Positions 8,017 through 19,850 of a stretch of DNA of 64,000 nucleotides are shown piece by piece. The stretch comes from Planctomycetota bacterium (GTDB lineage Bacteria > Planctomycetota > UBA1135 > UBA2386), in contig JAHBXX010000014.1 in assembly GCA_019636245.1 (NCBI GenBank), forward strand, positions 1 to 64,000, given 5' to 3'. A program made the translations under genes and the position numbers. How positions within the stretch are numbered: the first letter of the stretch is position 1; every line of letters starts with the position of its first letter. A model generated the notes under the pieces. The model ran no database searches, was not told the origin of the DNA, and saw nothing but the letters and a program-made list of their open reading frames with translations.

Positions 8017-8172
8017 GGGGCTGCGGGTGAACCTGCACTTCCAGGTGCTGTGGCTGGACGGGGTGCATGCGAGCGAGCCGGGCACTGGCCGCGGGGTCTT
8101 CTGCGCGCACGCGGAGGTGACAGATCGCCGAGTGGCGCAGCTGGTGGCGGCGATCCGGGTGCGGGTGGTGCG
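8017..8172 (+). mobile_element. IS91-type (Y2/HUH) transposase fragment, N-terminal side
   Basis: The encoded segment reads GPGLRVNLHFQVLWLDGV, followed about 20 residues later by EVTDRRVAQLVAAIRVRVVR. This matches the HUH-nuclease region of IS91-family Y2 transposases, where LNVHFHxLxLDGV is followed by a helix ending in ARV-R-L. The second His of the HFH catalytic motif is Gln here (HFQ), so even this fragment looks dead. It runs in frame into the truncated galactose-oxidase C-terminus at about 8173 without a stop, so the two were fused by a rearrangement. A matching C-terminal transposase piece lies beyond the array at about 16308. Confidence 0.6.
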
Positions 8173-8521
8173 GTATAACCTCGTGCTGGTCAACCAGTTC
8201 ACCCTGGCGCCGATCAGCCAGACGGCCCTGTCCGGAGTCCTTTACGGCCAGACCGTCATCGCCGGGCTCAACACGCGCTTGCCCACCGGGGTCACCATCG
8301 AGGAGGCCGTCCTGCTGGCCCCGGCCGCGTTGACCCACCACGATGACGGTGGCCAGCGCTGCATTCCGCTGCTGGTGCAGGACGACATCTCGTTTCCGCA
8401 CGGGTCCGCGCGGGTCACGATGCCCGCCTCCGCGCAGCACGCTCCGCCCGGCTGGTACATGCTGTTCGTCCTGACCAATGCCGGCATCCCTTCCAACGCC
8501 GTCTGGATCAACCTGAGGTGA
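8173..8521 (+). pseudogene. 5'-truncated galactose-oxidase-like gene (C-terminal E-set domain only)
   Basis: About 115 codons that encode the C-terminal early-set (DUF1929-type) domain of galactose/glyoxal-oxidase-like proteins. They contain GVLYGQT, ALTHHDDGGQRCIPL (the usual VTHSFDxxQRYVPL strand pair) and the terminal APPGWYMLFVLTNAGIPS. The kelch propeller and active site are missing, and no start codon or signal is visible. The left end joins transposase-like sequence. The stop (TGA 8519-8521) lies 2 bp before the FG-GAP start, which preserves the original tandem gene order. From 8416 onward this sequence is the beginning of the repeat unit. Confidence 0.7.
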
Positions 8522-8523
8522 CC

Positions 8524-10191
8524 ATGCGAGTCCTCCGACTGTGCGTCCTCGTGCTGCTCGCCGGGGTGTGCCTGCCGGGGCAGGAACTGCTCTGGCGGTT
8601 GGAGGGCCAGGGTGGGGTGCTCGGTCGTGGCCGCGAGCTGTACCGGCTGGGCGACGTCAACGGCGACGGCTGGGAGGACATGATCGAGTGGGGTCAGGTG
8701 GCGGATGCGGCGAGTCCGGCGGGCCGCCGCAACGCGCTGTTCGTGACCTCGAGCCAGAACGGTGCCGTGTTGTCGCAGGCACCGGCGATGGCGACCTGGG
8801 GGCTCAGCTTCCGGATCTGGTCGCTCACGGGGGTCGGCGACATGAACCAGGACACGATCCCCGACTACGCGGTGACCGTCTACGACGCCGCTGCCATCAG
8901 CAATCCACCGCAGTGGATCGAGGTCCGAAGCGGTGCCAGCCACGCTGTGCTCTGGACGCAGACGATTCCGTTCGCGTGGAGCCACTCCTACGGCTACTCG
9001 ATCGGCGGCGACATGGACGTCAACGGCGACGGCCTGCGCGACATCGTCGTCGGCGCGCCGCAGTTGTCGCCCGGTGGCACGATCATCGTCTACGGCAACG
9101 ACGGCGCCGAGCTCTACCGCATCGTCGACCCGCTGCCCAACGTGCGCATCGGCGTCGACCTGCAGCCGCTGCACGGCGATCTCGACGGCGATGGCTGCGA
9201 CGACTTCCTGTGCGCCGGCCCGGACTGGCTGGGCCGCGGGGCGGTGATCGTGTTCTCGGGCCAGACCGGCGCGGTGCTGCGCGAGTCGTATGGCGACCAG
9301 GGGGGCGACGCGCTGTCGTTCGCGACGCCGTGCGGCGACATGGACGGCGATGGCGTGCCCGACTACGCGGGTGGCGGCTTCTGGGGCGCGTCGGCGGTGA
9401 CGGCCTTCTCGGGCGCGACTGGGCTGCGCATCCACACCTGGCGCCTTCCGACCCCCTACATGGGCGGCAACCTGATGGGTGGCTTCGACGTCGACCAGGA
9501 TGGCGTCAACGACATCGTCGCCGGCCAGGACCAGGAATCCCTCAACGTGCTGTCGGGCCGCGACGGCACGTTCCTGCGGCGCTACTTCGATTCGGTCCCG
9601 GGCGTTTCGACGGCCGGGATCGGTATGGCACAGGTGCTGCTGGCACCGCCGCCGGGTGAGCAGTACCCGCTGTTCGTCTACAGCGAGCGCGAGTGGCTCA
9701 ACAACACGACCAACCCGCCGATCAACAACCTGATCCCGGGCCTGTTGTGGTGCTACCGCGGCAGCCCCGACGGCGTGCGCGGCTACGGTGCCGCGGATGC
9801 GAGCGCTGGCCGGCCGCTGCCGCGCAGCGGCGTGCGCGATGTCGACGGGCCGGGCGTGCGCTTCACGCTGTCGAACGCGCCGCCTTCGATGCCGGCGCTG
9901 CTGCTGCTCGGCACGTCGTCGACGACCTACGGGGCCGTGCCGCTGCCAGCGCCGCTCGATGCGCTCGGCATGCCGGGCATGACCCTGCTGACCGCCGCGG
10001 ACGTGGTCGGCTTTGCCTGGACTGGCGCCACCGGCATGGCGCACGGCTACGCGGCGCTCGAGCCCAACGTGCCACCCGGCATGAGCCTGCACGCGAACGG
10101 CACGGCGTTGTTCGCGCAGTGGCTGTGGTTCGACCCGTTCGACCTGAGCCAGGGCGGGTCGACGATGGGCCAGCGGTTTCGCGTGCAGTAG
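8524..10191 (+). CDS. Secreted FG-GAP/integrin-like beta-propeller protein, copy 1
   Basis: 555 residues from the ATG at 8524. It has a typical Sec signal (Arg-containing start, then CVLVLLAGVCLPGQ). The mature protein carries FG-GAP/VCBS blades with Ca2+-binding loops: DVNGDGWEDM, DMNQDTIPDY, DVNGDGLRDIV, DLDGDGCDDF, DMDGDGVPDY and DVDQDGVNDI. These loops are hallmarks of integrin-alpha-like propellers, which serve as extracellular binding or scaffold domains. The C-terminal ~110 residues form a separate beta domain seen in many secreted proteins of this type. It is coupled to the preceding galactose-oxidase-like sequence (2-bp gap). This copy lacks an upstream promoter within the array. Confidence 0.9.
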   Translation: MRVLRLCVLVLLAGVCLPGQELLWRLEGQGGVLGRGRELYRLGDVNGDGWEDMIEWGQVADAASPAGRRNALFVTSSQNGAVLSQAPAMATWGLSFRIWSLTGVGDMNQDTIPDYAVTVYDAAAISNPPQWIEVRSGASHAVLWTQTIPFAWSHSYGYSIGGDMDVNGDGLRDIVVGAPQLSPGGTIIVYGNDGAELYRIVDPLPNVRIGVDLQPLHGDLDGDGCDDFLCAGPDWLGRGAVIVFSGQTGAVLRESYGDQGGDALSFATPCGDMDGDGVPDYAGGGFWGASAVTAFSGATGLRIHTWRLPTPYMGGNLMGGFDVDQDGVNDIVAGQDQESLNVLSGRDGTFLRRYFDSVPGVSTAGIGMAQVLLAPPPGEQYPLFVYSEREWLNNTTNPPINNLIPGLLWCYRGSPDGVRGYGAADASAGRPLPRSGVRDVDGPGVRFTLSNAPPSMPALLLLGTSSTTYGAVPLPAPLDALGMPGMTLLTAADVVGFAWTGATGMAHGYAALEPNVPPGMSLHANGTALFAQWLWFDPFDLSQGGSTMGQRFRVQ

Positions 10192-10203
10192 CAGCGAGGC
10201 GCG

Positions 10204-10252
10204 GCGCGATTCGCCGCCAGGCGACCGCTGGCCGCCGACCGTCGAATCGCGC
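10204..10252 (+). terminator. Hairpin after FG-GAP copy 1
   Basis: A perfect 10-bp inverted repeat, GCGCGATTCG (10204-10213) and CGAATCGCGC (10243-10252). An inner CCAG/CTGG pairing lies in the loop. It starts 12 bp after the FG-GAP stop. No T-tract follows, so it may be an intrinsic-like terminator or an mRNA 3'-end stabiliser. Confidence 0.6.
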
Positions 10253-10682
10253 GGCTGCCGCCACTTCGGCGCCGGCTGCGAGCCCGCGCAGCAACTCGGC
10301 CTGGCGGCCTCGGCCTTCGCTTCGGCCTTGCCCGCGGCGGCGCCGCAGCACGCCTTCTCGGCGGCGCCAGCCCCGACGAGCAGACCCTGCAGTGGATGCC
10401 GATGGCGCCGCGTCGGCCCTGGAACTGGGTGGGTCCGCTGGTCGACCGCGTGATCCCCGAGGTGCCGCGCTGGTGCCGTGGCCGAGGAAGCGCGTGGTGA
10501 CCTACCATGGGATCTGGCTGCCGCCACGGTGGGGCAGCTGCTGGTGCGGCGACGGGCGCGGACGAGGATCGTCGGTGCGTGGGTCCCGGGTGGTTCGGGA
10601 CGCAGCTAGGACTTCCTATTCGCCCCCGCCGACGATGCGCTGCAACGTTGGTGCGCCGGGGGGCGCGAGGTCGCGGCGGGAA
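10253..10682 (+). other. Spacer with decayed transposase-like sequence, unit 1
   Basis: No intact gene is seen. In mixed frames the strand reads pieces such as WVGPLVDRVIPEVP and ALVPWPRKRVVTYHG (about 10420-10515). These resemble the VPPPRxHLxRYHG segment near the C-terminus of IS91-type transposases, broken by frameshifts. The identification is weak here and rests mainly on the better-preserved continuation beyond copy 3. Confidence 0.35.
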
Positions 10683-10711
10683 TTGACACGATGCGCGACG
10701 CCGCCGAGAAT
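10683..10711 (+). promoter_or_regulatory. Sigma-70-like promoter of galactose-oxidase-like/FG-GAP cassette
   Basis: A perfect -35 TTGACA (10683-10688), a 17-bp spacer and GAGAAT (10706-10711) as -10 (4 of 6 matches). A strong ribosome site AAAGGAGG (about 10724-10731) follows, then the ATG at 10736. The hexamer, spacing and distance to the start are all consistent with a housekeeping promoter. Confidence 0.65.
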
Positions 10712-10735
10712 CACCGGCGAAGGAAAGGAGGTCCG

Positions 10736-11443
10736 ATGCAGCCGAGCTACGCGTCTGTTCTGTTCTGTGGTGAGGTGAGTGCCCAGGGCGTGTGGGGGGC
10801 GCCGTTCGATCACCTTGCCAGTGGTCCCGAAGTCGACCCCGCATCCCACTCCGTGATTCCGACGACGTCGCCACCGCCGAACGCAGCGAACTGGATCACG
10901 CAGAACGTGCCCGGCCAGCCCGGGCCGCATAACGGGTTCAGCGCCGTGCATGCGTGCGTGATCCCATCCGGTCCGCATCGTGGCGAGGTGCTGGTGTGGG
11001 ATGGCAACCTGACCCTGGTCGGCACCCGTGCCTACCAGCCCTGTGCGATCGTCAATCCGTACTGGCCGTCGCCCAACCCGTTCGTGCCGGGTGGCGGCAG
11101 CGGCTACCGGTTCCACAACTGGCTGCTGCCGGTGCCGCTCGATTCCTCTGGCCAGCCGATGGGTGAGCTGTTCTGCGCCGGGCAGCGCTGGTTGTCGGAT
11201 GGCCGCCTGTTCGTGGCGGGCGGCACCAAGCGGTACCCGATCCAACTGGGGGGTGCGGATCGCTGGGAGGGCGCGAAGTTCGTCTGGCAGTGGGATCCGA
11301 CGCCGACGGCCGGCAGCCCGTTCGGGACTTGGTGGCGCACGATGCCCGCCTCCGCGCAGCACGCTCCGCCCGGCTGGTACATGCTGTTCGTCCTGACCAA
11401 TGCCGGCATCCCTTCCAACGCCGTCTGGATCAACCTGAGGTGA
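10736..11443 (+). CDS. Galactose-oxidase-like protein with large internal deletion, copy 1
   Basis: 235 residues from the ATG at 10736, chosen for the AAAGGAGG site 4-5 bp upstream. Residues 1-200 are the N-terminal, kelch-propeller part of a galactose/glyoxal-oxidase-like protein (GAPFDHLASGP, HRGEVLVWDGN, WLSDGRLFVAGGTKRYP). Residues 202-235 (MPASAQHAPPGW onward) are the last strands of the E-set domain. The several hundred residues normally between them, including the Cys/Tyr/His copper site, are absent. The join at 11337/11338 is exactly the repeat-unit boundary and keeps the frame. It is followed after 2 bp by an FG-GAP copy. It is probably not an oxidase, and a stable fold is uncertain. 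Confidence 0.75.
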   Translation: MQPSYASVLFCGEVSAQGVWGAPFDHLASGPEVDPASHSVIPTTSPPPNAANWITQNVPGQPGPHNGFSAVHACVIPSGPHRGEVLVWDGNLTLVGTRAYQPCAIVNPYWPSPNPFVPGGGSGYRFHNWLLPVPLDSSGQPMGELFCAGQRWLSDGRLFVAGGTKRYPIQLGGADRWEGAKFVWQWDPTPTAGSPFGTWWRTMPASAQHAPPGWYMLFVLTNAGIPSNAVWINLR

Positions 11444-11445
11444 CC

Positions 11446-13113
11446 ATGCGAGTCCTCCGACTGTGCGTCCTCGTGCTGCTCGCCGGGGTGTGCCTGCCGG
11501 GGCAGGAACTGCTCTGGCGGTTGGAGGGCCAGGGTGGGGTGCTCGGTCGTGGCCGCGAGCTGTACCGGCTGGGCGACGTCAACGGCGACGGCTGGGAGGA
11601 CATGATCGAGTGGGGTCAGGTGGCGGATGCGGCGAGTCCGGCGGGCCGCCGCAACGCGCTGTTCGTGACCTCGAGCCAGAACGGTGCCGTGTTGTCGCAG
11701 GCACCGGCGATGGCGACCTGGGGGCTCAGCTTCCGGATCTGGTCGCTCACGGGGGTCGGCGACATGAACCAGGACACGATCCCCGACTACGCGGTGACCG
11801 TCTACGACGCCGCTGCCATCAGCAATCCACCGCAGTGGATCGAGGTCCGAAGCGGTGCCAGCCACGCTGTGCTCTGGACGCAGACGATTCCGTTCGCGTG
11901 GAGCCACTCCTACGGCTACTCGATCGGCGGCGACATGGACGTCAACGGCGACGGCCTGCGCGACATCGTCGTCGGCGCGCCGCAGTTGTCGCCCGGTGGC
12001 ACGATCATCGTCTACGGCAACGACGGCGCCGAGCTCTACCGCATCGTCGACCCGCTGCCCAACGTGCGCATCGGCGTCGACCTGCAGCCGCTGCACGGCG
12101 ATCTCGACGGCGATGGCTGCGACGACTTCCTGTGCGCCGGCCCGGACTGGCTGGGCCGCGGGGCGGTGATCGTGTTCTCGGGCCAGACCGGCGCGGTGCT
12201 GCGCGAGTCGTATGGCGACCAGGGGGGCGACGCGCTGTCGTTCGCGACGCCGTGCGGCGACATGGACGGCGATGGCGTGCCCGACTACGCGGGTGGCGGC
12301 TTCTGGGGCGCGTCGGCGGTGACGGCCTTCTCGGGCGCGACTGGGCTGCGCATCCACACCTGGCGCCTTCCGACCCCCTACATGGGCGGCAACCTGATGG
12401 GTGGCTTCGACGTCGACCAGGATGGCGTCAACGACATCGTCGCCGGCCAGGACCAGGAATCCCTCAACGTGCTGTCGGGCCGCGACGGCACGTTCCTGCG
12501 GCGCTACTTCGATTCGGTCCCGGGCGTTTCGACGGCCGGGATCGGTATGGCACAGGTGCTGCTGGCACCGCCGCCGGGTGAGCAGTACCCGCTGTTCGTC
12601 TACAGCGAGCGCGAGTGGCTCAACAACACGACCAACCCGCCGATCAACAACCTGATCCCGGGCCTGTTGTGGTGCTACCGCGGCAGCCCCGACGGCGTGC
12701 GCGGCTACGGTGCCGCGGATGCGAGCGCTGGCCGGCCGCTGCCGCGCAGCGGCGTGCGCGATGTCGACGGGCCGGGCGTGCGCTTCACGCTGTCGAACGC
12801 GCCGCCTTCGATGCCGGCGCTGCTGCTGCTCGGCACGTCGTCGACGACCTACGGGGCCGTGCCGCTGCCAGCGCCGCTCGATGCGCTCGGCATGCCGGGC
12901 ATGACCCTGCTGACCGCCGCGGACGTGGTCGGCTTTGCCTGGACTGGCGCCACCGGCATGGCGCACGGCTACGCGGCGCTCGAGCCCAACGTGCCACCCG
13001 GCATGAGCCTGCACGCGAACGGCACGGCGTTGTTCGCGCAGTGGCTGTGGTTCGACCCGTTCGACCTGAGCCAGGGCGGGTCGACGATGGGCCAGCGGTT
13101 TCGCGTGCAGTAG
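11446..13113 (+). CDS. Secreted FG-GAP beta-propeller protein, copy 2
   Basis: 555 residues, identical in translation to the copy at 8524. Unlike that copy it sits 2 bp downstream of a complete promoter-RBS-hybrid gene (10683-11443), so it has an obvious route to transcription. It has the same Sec signal and six DxDxDG-type calcium loops. Confidence 0.9.
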   Translation: MRVLRLCVLVLLAGVCLPGQELLWRLEGQGGVLGRGRELYRLGDVNGDGWEDMIEWGQVADAASPAGRRNALFVTSSQNGAVLSQAPAMATWGLSFRIWSLTGVGDMNQDTIPDYAVTVYDAAAISNPPQWIEVRSGASHAVLWTQTIPFAWSHSYGYSIGGDMDVNGDGLRDIVVGAPQLSPGGTIIVYGNDGAELYRIVDPLPNVRIGVDLQPLHGDLDGDGCDDFLCAGPDWLGRGAVIVFSGQTGAVLRESYGDQGGDALSFATPCGDMDGDGVPDYAGGGFWGASAVTAFSGATGLRIHTWRLPTPYMGGNLMGGFDVDQDGVNDIVAGQDQESLNVLSGRDGTFLRRYFDSVPGVSTAGIGMAQVLLAPPPGEQYPLFVYSEREWLNNTTNPPINNLIPGLLWCYRGSPDGVRGYGAADASAGRPLPRSGVRDVDGPGVRFTLSNAPPSMPALLLLGTSSTTYGAVPLPAPLDALGMPGMTLLTAADVVGFAWTGATGMAHGYAALEPNVPPGMSLHANGTALFAQWLWFDPFDLSQGGSTMGQRFRVQ

Positions 13114-13125
13114 CAGCGAGGCGCG

Positions 13126-13174
13126 GCGCGATTCGCCGCCAGGCGACCGCTGGCCGCCGACCGTCGAATCGCGC
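13126..13174 (+). terminator. Hairpin after FG-GAP copy 2
   Basis: An exact copy, one period on, of the 10-bp-stem hairpin at 10204-10252, again 12 bp downstream of the FG-GAP stop. Confidence 0.6.
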
Positions 13175-13604
13175 GGCTGCCGCCACTTCGGCGCCGGCTG
13201 CGAGCCCGCGCAGCAACTCGGCCTGGCGGCCTCGGCCTTCGCTTCGGCCTTGCCCGCGGCGGCGCCGCAGCACGCCTTCTCGGCGGCGCCAGCCCCGACG
13301 AGCAGACCCTGCAGTGGATGCCGATGGCGCCGCGTCGGCCCTGGAACTGGGTGGGTCCGCTGGTCGACCGCGTGATCCCCGAGGTGCCGCGCTGGTGCCG
13401 TGGCCGAGGAAGCGCGTGGTGACCTACCATGGGATCTGGCTGCCGCCACGGTGGGGCAGCTGCTGGTGCGGCGACGGGCGCGGACGAGGATCGTCGGTGC
13501 GTGGGTCCCGGGTGGTTCGGGACGCAGCTAGGACTTCCTATTCGCCCCCGCCGACGATGCGCTGCAACGTTGGTGCGCCGGGGGGCGCGAGGTCGCGGCG
13601 GGAA
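13175..13604 (+). other. Spacer with decayed transposase-like sequence, unit 2
   Basis: An exact copy of the spacer at 10253-10682. No intact gene; the same weak resemblance to the C-terminal part of an IS91-type transposase. Confidence 0.35.
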
Positions 13605-13633
13605 TTGACACGATGCGCGACGCCGCCGAGAAT
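13605..13633 (+). promoter_or_regulatory. Sigma-70-like promoter, second copy
   Basis: TTGACA at 13605-13610, 17-bp spacer, GAGAAT at 13628-13633. An exact copy of the element at 10683; it would drive the hybrid gene at 13658 and FG-GAP copy 3. Confidence 0.65.
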
Positions 13634-13657
13634 CACCGGCGAAGGAAAGGAGGTCCG

Positions 13658-14365
13658 ATGCAGCCGAGCTACGCGTCTGTTCTGTTCTGTGGTGAGGTGA
13701 GTGCCCAGGGCGTGTGGGGGGCGCCGTTCGATCACCTTGCCAGTGGTCCCGAAGTCGACCCCGCATCCCACTCCGTGATTCCGACGACGTCGCCACCGCC
13801 GAACGCAGCGAACTGGATCACGCAGAACGTGCCCGGCCAGCCCGGGCCGCATAACGGGTTCAGCGCCGTGCATGCGTGCGTGATCCCATCCGGTCCGCAT
13901 CGTGGCGAGGTGCTGGTGTGGGATGGCAACCTGACCCTGGTCGGCACCCGTGCCTACCAGCCCTGTGCGATCGTCAATCCGTACTGGCCGTCGCCCAACC
14001 CGTTCGTGCCGGGTGGCGGCAGCGGCTACCGGTTCCACAACTGGCTGCTGCCGGTGCCGCTCGATTCCTCTGGCCAGCCGATGGGTGAGCTGTTCTGCGC
14101 CGGGCAGCGCTGGTTGTCGGATGGCCGCCTGTTCGTGGCGGGCGGCACCAAGCGGTACCCGATCCAACTGGGGGGTGCGGATCGCTGGGAGGGCGCGAAG
14201 TTCGTCTGGCAGTGGGATCCGACGCCGACGGCCGGCAGCCCGTTCGGGACTTGGTGGCGCACGATGCCCGCCTCCGCGCAGCACGCTCCGCCCGGCTGGT
14301 ACATGCTGTTCGTCCTGACCAATGCCGGCATCCCTTCCAACGCCGTCTGGATCAACCTGAGGTGA
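13658..14365 (+). CDS. Galactose-oxidase-like protein with large internal deletion, copy 2
   Basis: 235 residues, identical to the hybrid at 10736. It has the same N-terminal kelch part, the same in-frame join to the E-set tail (junction at 14259/14260) and the same RBS. That a second, identical, open copy exists shows the deletion arose before or together with the amplification. Confidence 0.75.
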   Translation: MQPSYASVLFCGEVSAQGVWGAPFDHLASGPEVDPASHSVIPTTSPPPNAANWITQNVPGQPGPHNGFSAVHACVIPSGPHRGEVLVWDGNLTLVGTRAYQPCAIVNPYWPSPNPFVPGGGSGYRFHNWLLPVPLDSSGQPMGELFCAGQRWLSDGRLFVAGGTKRYPIQLGGADRWEGAKFVWQWDPTPTAGSPFGTWWRTMPASAQHAPPGWYMLFVLTNAGIPSNAVWINLR

Positions 14366-14367
14366 CC

Positions 14368-16035
14368 ATGCGAGTCCTCCGACTGTGCGTCCTCGTGCTG
14401 CTCGCCGGGGTGTGCCTGCCGGGGCAGGAACTGCTCTGGCGGTTGGAGGGCCAGGGTGGGGTGCTCGGTCGTGGCCGCGAGCTGTACCGGCTGGGCGACG
14501 TCAACGGCGACGGCTGGGAGGACATGATCGAGTGGGGTCAGGTGGCGGATGCGGCGAGTCCGGCGGGCCGCCGCAACGCGCTGTTCGTGACCTCGAGCCA
14601 GAACGGTGCCGTGTTGTCGCAGGCACCGGCGATGGCGACCTGGGGGCTCAGCTTCCGGATCTGGTCGCTCACGGGGGTCGGCGACATGAACCAGGACACG
14701 ATCCCCGACTACGCGGTGACCGTCTACGACGCCGCTGCCATCAGCAATCCACCGCAGTGGATCGAGGTCCGAAGCGGTGCCAGCCACGCTGTGCTCTGGA
14801 CGCAGACGATTCCGTTCGCGTGGAGCCACTCCTACGGCTACTCGATCGGCGGCGACATGGACGTCAACGGCGACGGCCTGCGCGACATCGTCGTCGGCGC
14901 GCCGCAGTTGTCGCCCGGTGGCACGATCATCGTCTACGGCAACGACGGCGCCGAGCTCTACCGCATCGTCGACCCGCTGCCCAACGTGCGCATCGGCGTC
15001 GACCTGCAGCCGCTGCACGGCGATCTCGACGGCGATGGCTGCGACGACTTCCTGTGCGCCGGCCCGGACTGGCTGGGCCGCGGGGCGGTGATCGTGTTCT
15101 CGGGCCAGACCGGCGCGGTGCTGCGCGAGTCGTATGGCGACCAGGGGGGCGACGCGCTGTCGTTCGCGACGCCGTGCGGCGACATGGACGGCGATGGCGT
15201 GCCCGACTACGCGGGTGGCGGCTTCTGGGGCGCGTCGGCGGTGACGGCCTTCTCGGGCGCGACTGGGCTGCGCATCCACACCTGGCGCCTTCCGACCCCC
15301 TACATGGGCGGCAACCTGATGGGTGGCTTCGACGTCGACCAGGATGGCGTCAACGACATCGTCGCCGGCCAGGACCAGGAATCCCTCAACGTGCTGTCGG
15401 GCCGCGACGGCACGTTCCTGCGGCGCTACTTCGATTCGGTCCCGGGCGTTTCGACGGCCGGGATCGGTATGGCACAGGTGCTGCTGGCACCGCCGCCGGG
15501 TGAGCAGTACCCGCTGTTCGTCTACAGCGAGCGCGAGTGGCTCAACAACACGACCAACCCGCCGATCAACAACCTGATCCCGGGCCTGTTGTGGTGCTAC
15601 CGCGGCAGCCCCGACGGCGTGCGCGGCTACGGTGCCGCGGATGCGAGCGCTGGCCGGCCGCTGCCGCGCAGCGGCGTGCGCGATGTCGACGGGCCGGGCG
15701 TGCGCTTCACGCTGTCGAACGCGCCGCCTTCGATGCCGGCGCTGCTGCTGCTCGGCACGTCGTCGACGACCTACGGGGCCGTGCCGCTGCCAGCGCCGCT
15801 CGATGCGCTCGGCATGCCGGGCATGACCCTGCTGACCGCCGCGGACGTGGTCGGCTTTGCCTGGACTGGCGCCACCGGCATGGCGCACGGCTACGCGGCG
15901 CTCGAGCCCAACGTGCCACCCGGCATGAGCCTGCACGCGAACGGCACGGCGTTGTTCGCGCAGTGGCTGTGGTTCGACCCGTTCGACCTGAGCCAGGGCG
16001 GGTCGACGATGGGCCAGCGGTTTCGCGTGCAGTAG
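14368..16035 (+). CDS. Secreted FG-GAP beta-propeller protein, copy 3
   Basis: 555 residues, identical to the other two copies, in the truncated last unit. It is preceded 2 bp upstream by the hybrid oxidase-like gene of unit 2 and so lies in the operon driven by the promoter at 13605. The terminator hairpin follows at 16048. Confidence 0.9.
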   Translation: MRVLRLCVLVLLAGVCLPGQELLWRLEGQGGVLGRGRELYRLGDVNGDGWEDMIEWGQVADAASPAGRRNALFVTSSQNGAVLSQAPAMATWGLSFRIWSLTGVGDMNQDTIPDYAVTVYDAAAISNPPQWIEVRSGASHAVLWTQTIPFAWSHSYGYSIGGDMDVNGDGLRDIVVGAPQLSPGGTIIVYGNDGAELYRIVDPLPNVRIGVDLQPLHGDLDGDGCDDFLCAGPDWLGRGAVIVFSGQTGAVLRESYGDQGGDALSFATPCGDMDGDGVPDYAGGGFWGASAVTAFSGATGLRIHTWRLPTPYMGGNLMGGFDVDQDGVNDIVAGQDQESLNVLSGRDGTFLRRYFDSVPGVSTAGIGMAQVLLAPPPGEQYPLFVYSEREWLNNTTNPPINNLIPGLLWCYRGSPDGVRGYGAADASAGRPLPRSGVRDVDGPGVRFTLSNAPPSMPALLLLGTSSTTYGAVPLPAPLDALGMPGMTLLTAADVVGFAWTGATGMAHGYAALEPNVPPGMSLHANGTALFAQWLWFDPFDLSQGGSTMGQRFRVQ

Positions 16036-16047
16036 CAGCGAGGCGCG

Positions 16048-16096
16048 GCGCGATTCGCCGCCAGGCGACCGCTGGCCGCCGACCGTCGAATCGCGC
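16048..16096 (+). terminator. Hairpin after FG-GAP copy 3
   Basis: Third copy of the GCGCGATTCG...CGAATCGCGC hairpin, 12 bp after the FG-GAP stop. Confidence 0.6.
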
Positions 16097-16307
16097 GGCT
16101 GCCGCCACTTCGGCGCCGGCTGCGAGCCCGCGCAGCAACTCGGCCTGGCGGCCTCGGCCTTCGCTTCGGCCTTGCCCGCGGCGGCGCCGCAGCACGCCTT
16201 CTCGGCGGCGCCAGCCCCGACGAGCAGACCCTGCAGTGGATGCCGATGGCGCCGCGTCGGCCCTGGAACTGGGTGGGTCCGCTGGTCGACCGCGTGATCC
16301 CCGAGGT

Positions 16308-16529
16308 GCCGCGCTGGTGCCGTGGCCGAGGAAGCGCGTGGTGACCTGCCATGGCGTGCTGGCGCCGGCGGCGGGTCTGCGGTCGCGGGTGGTGCCGCGT
16401 GTGTTGCCAGAGGAGGCTGAGCACGGCGGCTGCCGGCACGGTGAGACGAACGTGGCTGCGGTCGGCAAAACGCTGGATCCGAGTGCCCAGCACGGTAGCG
16501 GCGAGCTCGATGGCCTCATGCCGCGATGA
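16308..16529 (+). mobile_element. IS91-type transposase fragment, C-terminal side
   Basis: Reading + in one frame to the stop at 16527-16529: ALVPWPRKRVVTCHGVLAP, then AAGLRSRVVPRVLPEEAEHG. IS91-family Y2 transposases carry VPPPRxHLxRYHGVLAPxAxxRxxVVP near the C-terminus, and this agrees well. The upstream catalytic half is absent on this side, and the downstream Cys-rich segment of intact members is not seen. It crosses the end of the repeat (16347), so copy 3 joined this sequence within the YHG motif shared with the decayed spacer copies. From 16530 to 16648 nothing recognisable was found. Confidence 0.55.
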
Positions 16530-16648: not shown

Positions 16649-17638
16649 TCATCTGGGGAGGCCTCGACGCGCCATGCGGCACGAACCGGTCGATGCGGCG
16701 CCCGACCGCCTCGCGCAGCGCCGCTTCGCCGCTTCGCCGGCCGGATCGGCGGCCGCGCAGGCCGGGTCGGTGCGTCGGAGGAACTCGCCGTCGTCGACCA
16801 GGCCGGCGCGCTGCAGCACTTCGTAGAAGCCGGTGCCAGGCACCGTGCGGCGCACGAAGCGGTAGACCTTGCGGCCGTCCATGTGGAAGTAGTGGTCGAG
16901 GTCCGGCGCCCCGGCGCCGAGCCGGCCGAGCAGCCGTTCCCGCGTCGGCGGTGCCGGCAGCTGCGCTGCGAACGCCATGTGCGCGAACGGGTCGTTGCGC
17001 GGATCGAGGCCACTGCGCTGGTAGATGGACTCGGCGTCGGGCACGGTGCGCAGGAACGAGCCGAGGATCTGCAGGCTGGGCGAAGCCGTGGGGCCAGCCG
17101 GCGGCCGGTCGGTGACGAAGCACGCCGTGGCGCCGTCGCCGAGCAGCACCGAGCTGCGGTCCGTCCAGTCGAGCATGCGCGTGGCGATGTCGGCGCCGAC
17201 GACGAGCACCTGCCGGCACTGCCCGCTCTGGACCATGGCGGCGCCGAGCACGATGCCGGCGACGAAGCTGGCGCAACCCTGCTGCAGGTCGAGCGCCGCC
17301 GCGCGCGGCATCGCCAGGCCGTGCCGCGCCAGCCCGCCCTGGATCAGGGCTGCGCCAGCCGGGTACACGAACGGCGCCGTGTTGGTGGCGAGCAGGATCA
17401 GGTCGGTGTCCGCGGCGGCCAGACCCGAACGTTCGAGGCTGCGCCGCGCGGCCCGCAGGCCGAGGTCGGTGGCGTGCTCCTCCGGGTCGACCACGTGGCG
17501 GGCGAGGATGCCGGTGTGCTCGGCGATCCACTCGGCGCTGGTGTCCAGCCACGGCATCCCGGCGACGATCTCCTCGTTGCTCAGGCGCCGGCGCGGCAGC
17601 TCGGCAGCGACAGCGGTGAGGAAGGCGGGGCCGGCCAT
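16649..17638 (-). pseudogene. Broken 3-oxoacyl-ACP synthase III (FabH-like)
   Basis: Starts at the ATG at 17636-17638. The thiolase-fold N-terminal half is intact, with the catalytic Cys in ALDLQQGCASF (C122) and LLGDGATACFV. Near residue 303 an 8-bp tandem duplication (CGCTTCGC at 16722-16729 and 16730-16737, + strand) shifts the frame. In the other frame the expected RIDRFVPHGASR, with the catalytic His, follows. Even after correcting the shift, the match ends at about 16660, so the catalytic Asn and the last strands are lost where transposase-flank sequence begins. Intact enzymes condense acyl-CoA with malonyl-ACP; this one is predicted dead. The frameshift could be a sequence error, but the C-terminal loss could not. 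Confidence 0.75.
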
Positions 17639-17814: not shown

Positions 17815-19539
17815 CTAGAAGGGCACCACGACCGCGGCCTCGGAGAGGCAGGACCCGGTGCCGTCGGCGATCTTCCACTGGGCGAAGAACGGGATGCCGA
17901 GCATGGCCGGGATCAGCGGCACCGGCTGCTGGACCGTGGCGAAGCCCTCGTTGGTCGTCGTGCCCGCGAACAGCGTCGCGAAGATCAGGTCGATGAAGAC
18001 GACCGGGCCAGGCCACGTCGCGGCGCCGAGATGGAGCCATGCCGGCTCCGCCGGCGGCGCGCTGCCGACCCCGAGCTTGAACCAGTCGACCGCGCCCGCG
18101 CCGGGCACCTTCGGCGGCGCGTTGGCGATCATCTGCGGCACGAAGCCGCTCGGGCCACCGGTGCCGGAGCCGTACAGGTTCGAACCGAACGGGTTCGCTT
18201 CGCTGTAGAGCTTCGGCCGGTCGAACGGCGCCGTCTCGGCGGCGACGCGCGGATCGGTCAACGCGTTCTGCAGGAAGTCGATGACGCGGGCCTTCTCGCC
18301 GGCGCTCAGGGGCGGGAAGAAGCCGAACCCGCCGGGCTGCTGGTTGTAGAAGTCGATCAGCTCGCTGAAGTTGGTCACGAACACGTTGCTGATGCCATCG
18401 CTGCCGTGGCCGGTGCTGAAGAACTTCTGGTGCAGGCCGAGGTTGCGCAGCGTCGGCGTCTTCCGCGGCGGCTGTCCGGGCAGGAAGATGTCGTGCGCCC
18501 GGCCATCCGAGAACAGGTTGTCCCACGGGTTCACCGTGCCCTGCACGCCGAGCTGCGGGTTGCCGGTCGCGCTGTGGCAGGAGAAGCAGGCGCCGCGGGT
18601 GCGGATCAGGTTGAAGCCGGCGACCTGCGCGGCCGACATCAGGCCGAGGTCGATCGGCGCCCGGTCGGGGATCAGCGTGCGGTGGTAGTGCGCGATCGCC
18701 ATCGCGAAGCGCTCGCGGGTGACGCCGACGAACCCGCCGAACTGCGGGTGCCAGTGGAACACCTTGTCGAAGATCTTGTCGTAGCGATGGCCCGAACCCG
18801 TGATCCACGCCACGTCCGGCGGGATCGTCGAAGGATCGACCAGGGCCAGCGGGTAGGACGTGTTCAGCTTCTGCTGCAGGAAGCCGCTCGTCCACGACAT
18901 GTTCTCGTGGCCCATTTCGACCTCGTTGACCGGCGGACCGACGGCGAGGTCCTCGAGGGCGGCGTCGACGAGGAAGTTCGGGATCTGGTTGCCGAAGTCG
19001 TCGAGGAAGTCGGGGCCGGCGCGCAGGTCCCAGAACAGCTCGCGGAACAGGTAGGCGCCGATCATCGTCGGCGCGTTGACCGGCGTGACGAGCCGATCCA
19101 CCTGCGTCGTCGGGTTGGCGACGAAGCCGTAGTCGATGGTGCCCACGTCGGCCTGGGCGATGACGCCGAAGGTGCCGAAGTTGGTGTTCGGGTGCACGGC
19201 GCCGTGGCGGATGTCGGTGCCGCCGGCCTTGATGTCGTGGCAGGTGCCGCAGGCCATGCTGTTGTCGGCCGAGACCTGTTCGTCCCAGAACAGCGCCTTG
19301 CCGAGCTGGGCGATCGCGTCGCGCCGGCCGAGGTCGAGCGCGCTGGCGGTGCTTCGGTGGTAGCGGTTGCCCGACGGCGAGGACGGGTGCGGCCAGTGCG
19401 AGGTGTCGGGCAGTTCGCCGGTGAGGCCGGGCGTCGGCGACTGCGCCAACGCGGCGAGGGTCAGCGCGGCGCCCGCGAACAGCGTCGGCAGGAGCCGGGG
19501 GCGGTGGGAGGCACGAGGCCTCGGGTCGAGAGGTTGCAT
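17815..19539 (-). CDS. Secreted di-haem cytochrome c peroxidase-like protein
   Basis: 574 residues from the ATG at 19537-19539, which exposes a Sec signal (PTLFAGAALTLAALAQ). Two haem c sites are visible: ACGTCH (residues 97-101) and ACFSCH (about residue 320). Both lie in the order and spacing of the CcpA/MauG superfamily. Conserved surroundings include LGKALFWDEQVS before the first haem and TPTLRNLGL near the C-terminal half. Members reduce H2O2 or oxidise protein side chains in the periplasm. The C-terminal ~100 residues are an extra beta-rich tail not found in short CCPs. The gene stands alone upstream of the broken ketosynthase, with two hairpins between. Confidence 0.85.
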   Translation of the reverse strand: MQPLDPRPRASHRPRLLPTLFAGAALTLAALAQSPTPGLTGELPDTSHWPHPSSPSGNRYHRSTASALDLGRRDAIAQLGKALFWDEQVSADNSMACGTCHDIKAGGTDIRHGAVHPNTNFGTFGVIAQADVGTIDYGFVANPTTQVDRLVTPVNAPTMIGAYLFRELFWDLRAGPDFLDDFGNQIPNFLVDAALEDLAVGPPVNEVEMGHENMSWTSGFLQQKLNTSYPLALVDPSTIPPDVAWITGSGHRYDKIFDKVFHWHPQFGGFVGVTRERFAMAIAHYHRTLIPDRAPIDLGLMSAAQVAGFNLIRTRGACFSCHSATGNPQLGVQGTVNPWDNLFSDGRAHDIFLPGQPPRKTPTLRNLGLHQKFFSTGHGSDGISNVFVTNFSELIDFYNQQPGGFGFFPPLSAGEKARVIDFLQNALTDPRVAAETAPFDRPKLYSEANPFGSNLYGSGTGGPSGFVPQMIANAPPKVPGAGAVDWFKLGVGSAPPAEPAWLHLGAATWPGPVVFIDLIFATLFAGTTTNEGFATVQQPVPLIPAMLGIPFFAQWKIADGTGSCLSEAAVVVPF

Positions 19540-19850
19540 GGGGGTGCTCGGAATCGCTGCCGCAGAGCAGGACGCGGCGGCCACCTGGCAGCGGCTTCTG
19601 GGTGACCGGGGACGCCGCGGCCGCTGCGGTCCGAGACCGCGGGCGCATGGCAGTCGCGTCCCGCTGGCGTCGATCGCACCGGCACTTCCAGATGGCCGCG
19701 GCCTTAAGCGGGCCGAGCGCAAGACCCGCCAATGACGGCCCCGTTACGAACCTGGGGCGAGTGCGGGCGGCCCGGCCACGATGGCAGGCCATCCGGCCGG
19801 TCCGGGCGGTCGCCGTTGCGCCGGGCCCCGGCACCGGCATAGTCGCGCCG
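19540..19850. other. Divergent intergenic region
   Basis: It lies between the start of the peroxidase gene (-) and the DUF4262 gene (+). It must hold promoters for both, but I see no convincing hexamer pair, riboswitch or RNA gene. A short AT-richer patch (CCGTTACGAACC) lies near 19740. Confidence 0.4.

Follow-up and report, generated by a model that had tools for sequence, protein, structure and literature searches.

Several of the systems that bear on the present locus are already known, each in its own right. Simple-sequence-repeat contingency (phase-variable) loci have been described in Neisseria, Haemophilus and Campylobacter (reviewed in PMC11868660), and that review makes no mention of Planctomycetes. 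Tandem duplication-amplification by recombination between direct repeats is equally familiar, as are copper radical oxidases, such as fungal galactose oxidase (1gof) and a secreted Streptomyces oxidase (4unm), and FG-GAP beta-propellers of the integrin type, which are found in bacteria (PMC3192720). The literature searched, which included few subscription papers and so provides absence of evidence only, yielded no case of these being combined in uncultured Planctomycetota. IS91-type rolling-circle transposons are a further point of comparison. The locus considered here resembles a tandem amplification in that one segment (E) lies between identical copies of another (S), in that the copies are undiverged and in that the flanks are unique. 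It differs from the known cases in that the oxidase in its unit is defective and in that the copy number is read from an assembly alone.

The window, by which we mean the whole stretch of 64,000 nucleotides analyzed, belongs to a draft MAG of 4.64 Mb, 92% complete and divided into 89 contigs (G000). When the window was compared with itself base by base, 5,010 nt were found to be identical, with 0 mismatches, at a lag of 2,922, which makes positions 8416-16347 an array of 2.71 periods; 8416-13425 is the sole identical run of at least 15 bases at this lag within the window. The exact 2,922-bp head-to-tail array of about 2.7 copies reported in the initial annotation is thus borne out, and the positions given there for the FG-GAP stops (10191, 13113 and 16035) and for the starts of the galactose-oxidase-like gene, hereafter GOx (10736 and 13658), are accurate. 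An exact repeat 5 kb long cannot have arisen by chance. The layout is L-S-E-S-E-S-R, with three copies of S (2,088 bp) and two of E (834 bp), all lying head to tail within one contig. S contains the last 36 codons of GOx, a complete gene for a secreted FG-GAP protein, a spacer and 38 nt of an IS91-type transposase, and E contains the promoter region and the GOx N-terminus. The base after the third S is G (16348), in place of the A that follows the other two (10504 and 13426); a common CCATGG comes next, and then the sequences diverge. A whole-genome search with one unit detected no further copies of it elsewhere in the genome, the E-S junction sequence had 0 matches in viral contigs, and no second genome carrying the array was found. 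The features of the array and its borders are as follows.

8060..8176, forward strand: left fragment of an IS91-type (Y2) transposase, matching residues 255-293 of the PF04986 ORF on contig C22 of the same genome (G000:C22)
8177..8521, forward strand: 5'-truncated GOx remnant (early-set domain) before the first FG-GAP gene; PF09118, E=1.3e-17; profile positions 486-576
8416..10503, forward strand: S copy 1, by exact identity at lag 2,922
8524..10191, forward strand: FG-GAP copy 1, encoding a secreted propeller of 555 aa; PF01839 and PF13517 both exceed the cut-off, with integrin alpha matches
10504..11337, forward strand: E copy 1, by exact lag identity; absent from the genome outside the array
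10683..10711, forward strand: sigma-70-like promoter TTGACA-17-GAGAAT, recurring at 13605-13633
10736..11443, forward strand: internally deleted GOx ORF with an in-frame junction at 11337/11338, recurring at 13658-14365
10754..10768, forward strand: (TCTGT)3 tract, starting 18 nt downstream of the first base of the ATG; frame open
11338..13425, forward strand: S copy 2, exactly identical
11446..13113, forward strand: FG-GAP copy 2, 100% identical over 557 aligned aa
13426..14259, forward strand: E copy 2, identical to 10504-11337
14260..16347, forward strand: S copy 3, running on into the unique right flank
14368..16035, forward strand: FG-GAP copy 3, 100% identical
16310..16454, forward strand: right fragment of the same IS91-type transposase, C22 ORF residues 428-478

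The unit had been taken for a galactose-oxidase cassette, a description that does not hold, as the middle of the oxidase is gone and what is left is an in-frame internal-deletion fragment. Profile positions 13-168 are joined in a single frame to positions 545-576 of 577, residue ~213 of the longer ORF being fused in frame to the last 36 residues. The fragment comprises 235 aa from the ATG at 10736, or 250 aa from an upstream ATG at 10691, compared with about 600-710 aa in relatives. The copper ligands of galactose oxidase are Tyr272, Tyr495/His496 and His581. The corresponding RWYPT, YHS and THH motifs all fall in the missing part, and because of their loss the array GOx cannot be a working oxidase or an active member of the copper radical oxidases. 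The in-frame deletion preserves the spacing between the GOx stop and the FG-GAP start, the stop lying 2 nt from the FG-GAP ATG. The GOx before the first FG-GAP copy is truncated differently from those in the rest of the array: it begins within the early-set domain, directly after the transposase fragment. No intact copy of the array GOx was found elsewhere in the genome. The truncated 250-aa protein, used as a query, retrieved no relatives among the genome contigs, but an alignment of full-length relatives did.

The GOx-FG-GAP pair is conserved in related Planctomycetota MAGs. GOx is followed by FG-GAP on the same strand at three loci in a genome of the same genus (G001), in G011, G014, G017, G040, G043 and G046, and on contig C1 of the window's own genome; the named records among these genomes are mostly uncultured Planctomycetota MAGs. 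The full-length GOx relatives keep FC-G, RWYPT, YHS and THH as invariant alignment columns, possess a C-terminal early-set domain (PF09118) and align by sequence with the fungal and Streptomyces enzymes, and by these motifs and this domain they are copper radical oxidases of the galactose-oxidase type. Gutted GOx genes upstream of an intact FG-GAP are also present, on the window genome's C1 (profile 13-423), in G002 (C48), G003 (C33), G006 (C214), G011 (C301 and C368), G040 (C277, at a contig end) and G046 (C200). Such deletion is therefore not peculiar to the window contig. Another GOx remnant of the same genome, on its contig C33 (G000:C33:40913-41243 = L202:5913-6243), has about 1.7 kb deleted, the repeat tract leading straight to the early-set domain; in the start region it shares 88-90% identity with the intact genes on C78 and C102 of G001, and the contig stops ~40 nt past the GOx stop, which leaves the partner out of view. 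The two operons on C78 and C102 are paralogs with 81.5% identity over 3.7 kb, and operon duplication has therefore occurred in the genus. The assembly of G001 is of the MEGAHIT type (its contig names carry k141), and these two GOx contigs have an exact common 141-nt start, a contig end that lies inside FG-GAP and equals the assembly k; judging by this end, the two operons run into one common sequence.

FG-GAP is the only intact gene of the array unit, and it is there in triplicate. Its N-terminus resembles a signal peptide by inspection, and among solved structures integrin alpha chains come closest to it in sequence. The gene was initially described as encoding a calcium-binding propeller, and six D-x-[DN]-x-D motifs in the intact protein are consistent with that prediction. 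FG-GAP repeats, these motifs and integrin alpha matches are what it has in common with the integrin-type propellers of bacteria, from which it differs as a stand-alone secreted protein with an additional C-terminal region. The promoter motif TTGACA-17-GAGAAT occurs at 1 site in 10190-10800, against 0.0 expected in shuffles. The proposal that each unit is a self-contained expression cassette is accordingly right in part: the unit does include a promoter-like site and an intact FG-GAP, but only transposase and GOx remnants, and no E with its promoter, lie upstream of the first FG-GAP copy.

A second feature of the operon emerges from the relatives, in which repeats with units of 2, 4, 5 or 7 nt directly follow the GOx start codon, 15 of 15 tracts being not divisible by 3. 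The tracts are (CT)15, (CT)13, (GGAA)5-11, (TCTCC)6, (CCTCT)12, (CTGTC)6, (ACTC)7, (TTGCTCG)4, (TCGCTGC)4 and (TC)17, although these lengths come from short-read assemblies and may be wrong. The starts concerned are at loci L060-L066, L069, L072, L145, L199 and L200 and, in the window's genome, at C1:124790 and C7:1828-1879. The ATG is in frame with GOx in 3 and out of frame in 9, the rest having no nearby ATG or being unscored, and the two states come from different genes and genomes, not from one population. Most out-of-frame starts run into early stops. Tracts are present in 12 of the 13 GOx genes paired with FG-GAP and in 1 of the 12 unpaired ones (Fisher p = 3e-5, the related genes being not fully independent). 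The pattern ATG-N(0-30)-(GGAA)5 is found at two places only in the window's genome, both in GOx genes, and the CTCCT pentamer has three occurrences across 41 genomes, of which two are in GOx. Across the 455 kb examined, the tracts of CT/AG or of 4-, 5- or 7-nt units that do not belong to a GOx start are, bar one, in loci chosen for such a tract. Because the start repeats are never multiples of 3 and the ATG occurs both in and out of frame, the GOx-FG-GAP operon is likely to be phase-variable across several Planctomycetota genera. Slippage at the GOx start of these relatives would switch GOx and, via coupling, possibly FG-GAP. The repeat units directly after the start codon and the two frame states are those of contingency loci; the differences are that the hosts are environmental Planctomycetota, that the product is a secreted oxidase and propeller, and that the operon is known here from sequence alone. 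The array in the window departs from this pattern, having no start repeat of at least four units and keeping (TCTGT)3 only, possibly a vestige of the start-codon repeat of its relatives.

Both flanks of the array match one transposase ORF, that on C22 (the single PF04986 match in the genome), in order and orientation, with DNA identities of 87% on the left (109 nt, up to 8176) and 77% on the right, where the first 38 nt of the fragment lie inside S. The array therefore sits within a broken transposase gene. Homology of the flank and S fragments to this ORF is the likeness to IS91-type transposons; the difference is that only remnants are present, two fragments and no complete Y2 transposase having been found at the locus. 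Next to the array on the right, on the minus strand, is a ketoacyl-synthase-like gene (16649-17638), the C-terminal end of which looks, by eye, truncated or frame-shifted near 16770. It has only 36-42% matches within the genus, and hence there is no empty site for comparison. Also beside the array, on the minus strand at 17815-19722, is a di-haem cytochrome c peroxidase-like protein (PF03150).

How could such an array have arisen? The initial annotation had listed recent amplification, homogenisation and assembly artefact, which we judge to be the right set. The reading that we prefer, with a probability of roughly 55%, is that a degenerate GOx-FG-GAP operon inside the broken IS91-type transposase gene underwent a real and recent head-to-tail amplification. 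It is favored because the 5,010-nt exact identity comes with FG-GAP intact three times, because direct-repeat recombination would be expected to produce S-(E-S)n and because E holds a promoter-like site. Also in its favor are the preserved spacing of GOx stop and FG-GAP start, the gutted GOx genes before FG-GAP in other MAGs and the duplication of the operon within the genus. Recombination between transposase remnants, which have about 15 bases in common (GGTGACCTRCCATGG), could have made the first duplication. Once S was present twice in direct orientation, homologous recombination between its 2,088-bp copies would add or remove E-S units. If cells carry the array at this copy number, transcription in each E-S unit would proceed from its own sigma-70-like promoter through the leftover GOx frame into FG-GAP, yielding the propeller, through close coupling, as well as a short GOx peptide; extra units would raise the dose of this secreted, calcium-binding, integrin-like protein, the oxidase being no longer made. 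Copy number might in this way tune dose by recombination, as the initial annotation had proposed. This reading has its own difficulties, as the differing GOx truncation of the first copy needs a second event and the array was found in no second genome.

Assemblers with repeat resolution may walk a graph loop twice, yielding L-S-E-S-E-S-R. It is conceivable, if on balance unlikely, that the array is a product of this kind, a loop S->E->S with entrance L and exit R walked twice, in which case the 2.7 copies would not be literal and the perfect identity, including that of non-coding DNA, would be automatic. This fits a draft MAG with short-read signs. Positions 1-53 of the contig are a poly-G run that looks like a two-colour Illumina artefact, and because the contig starts in this way and the genome is a many-contig draft, the genome was likely built from short-read data. 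The caution in the initial annotation about short-read assembly of such arrays is pertinent to this genome: short reads cannot span the exact 2,088-bp S, for which reason the printed copy number is untrustworthy and the count of 2.7 unreliable. Faulty contig ends are also suggested by the contig pairs C1/C2 and C7/C15 of this genome, whose starts are imperfect copies of the same 77-118 bp (92-97% identical, at the same offset) and then differ, as chimeric or repeat-bounded ends might; among 41 contig ends the overlaps were imperfect ones only, none being exact. Other GOx genes of this and related MAGs likewise lie at contig ends. However, the loop needs reads across both the E-S and the S-E junctions, so that a duplication or circle of the operon probably exists; the loop itself may stem from one tandem duplication, from a minority variant or from chimeric reads. 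The one base that differs beside the end of the third S also argues that the copies were not simply pasted.

Rolling-circle or circular forms, even taken together, are improbable. Read-through by an IS91-like element beyond its end, with repeated copying of the adjacent DNA, would explain why Y2-transposase fragments flank the array and occur in S, as well as the non-integer copy number, but with only remnants and no intact transposase at the locus such transposition is highly improbable. A 2,922-bp circular S-E molecule existing alongside a chromosomal L-S-R copy and merged with it by assembly would, by reasoning from the sequence, give the same set of junctions; since no replication or recombination protein can be recognized among the products of the unit, we regard this as likewise highly improbable.

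Should the preferred reading of a real amplification hold, the array would amplify the dose of a secreted integrin-like propeller, and would do so in a phylum in which such variation has been little studied. That the oxidase-propeller pair is conserved and bears start repeats in several genera suggests that surface or secreted chemistry is phase-variable in environmental Planctomycetota. Tentatively, and with the odds somewhat against it, the two may be combined into a dual contingency system acting on a secreted copper-radical-oxidase/integrin-like operon, in which repeats at the oxidase start codon would switch the operon, and GOx deletions and exact amplification would remodel it so that FG-GAP is expressed whether or not the oxidase is made, the array in the window being the amplified state with a decayed switch.

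The idea that start-codon repeats are a trait of GOx only was dropped; other secreted proteins of the order carry them, and a wider phase-variable repertoire in the order seems likely from these starts. A sigma-factor gene read by eye behind the repeat at L213 was not backed by Pfam. The same start-codon repeats stand before mostly secreted-looking proteins at L212:4137, L214:2986, L215:3243, L217, L219, L224 and L204:4692, and the repeat-preceded genes other than GOx are of several kinds: some belong to a family of approximately 920 aa that has no match in Pfam, others encode a DUF1565 protein and a subtilase (PF00082), and one neighbours an unpaired GOx.
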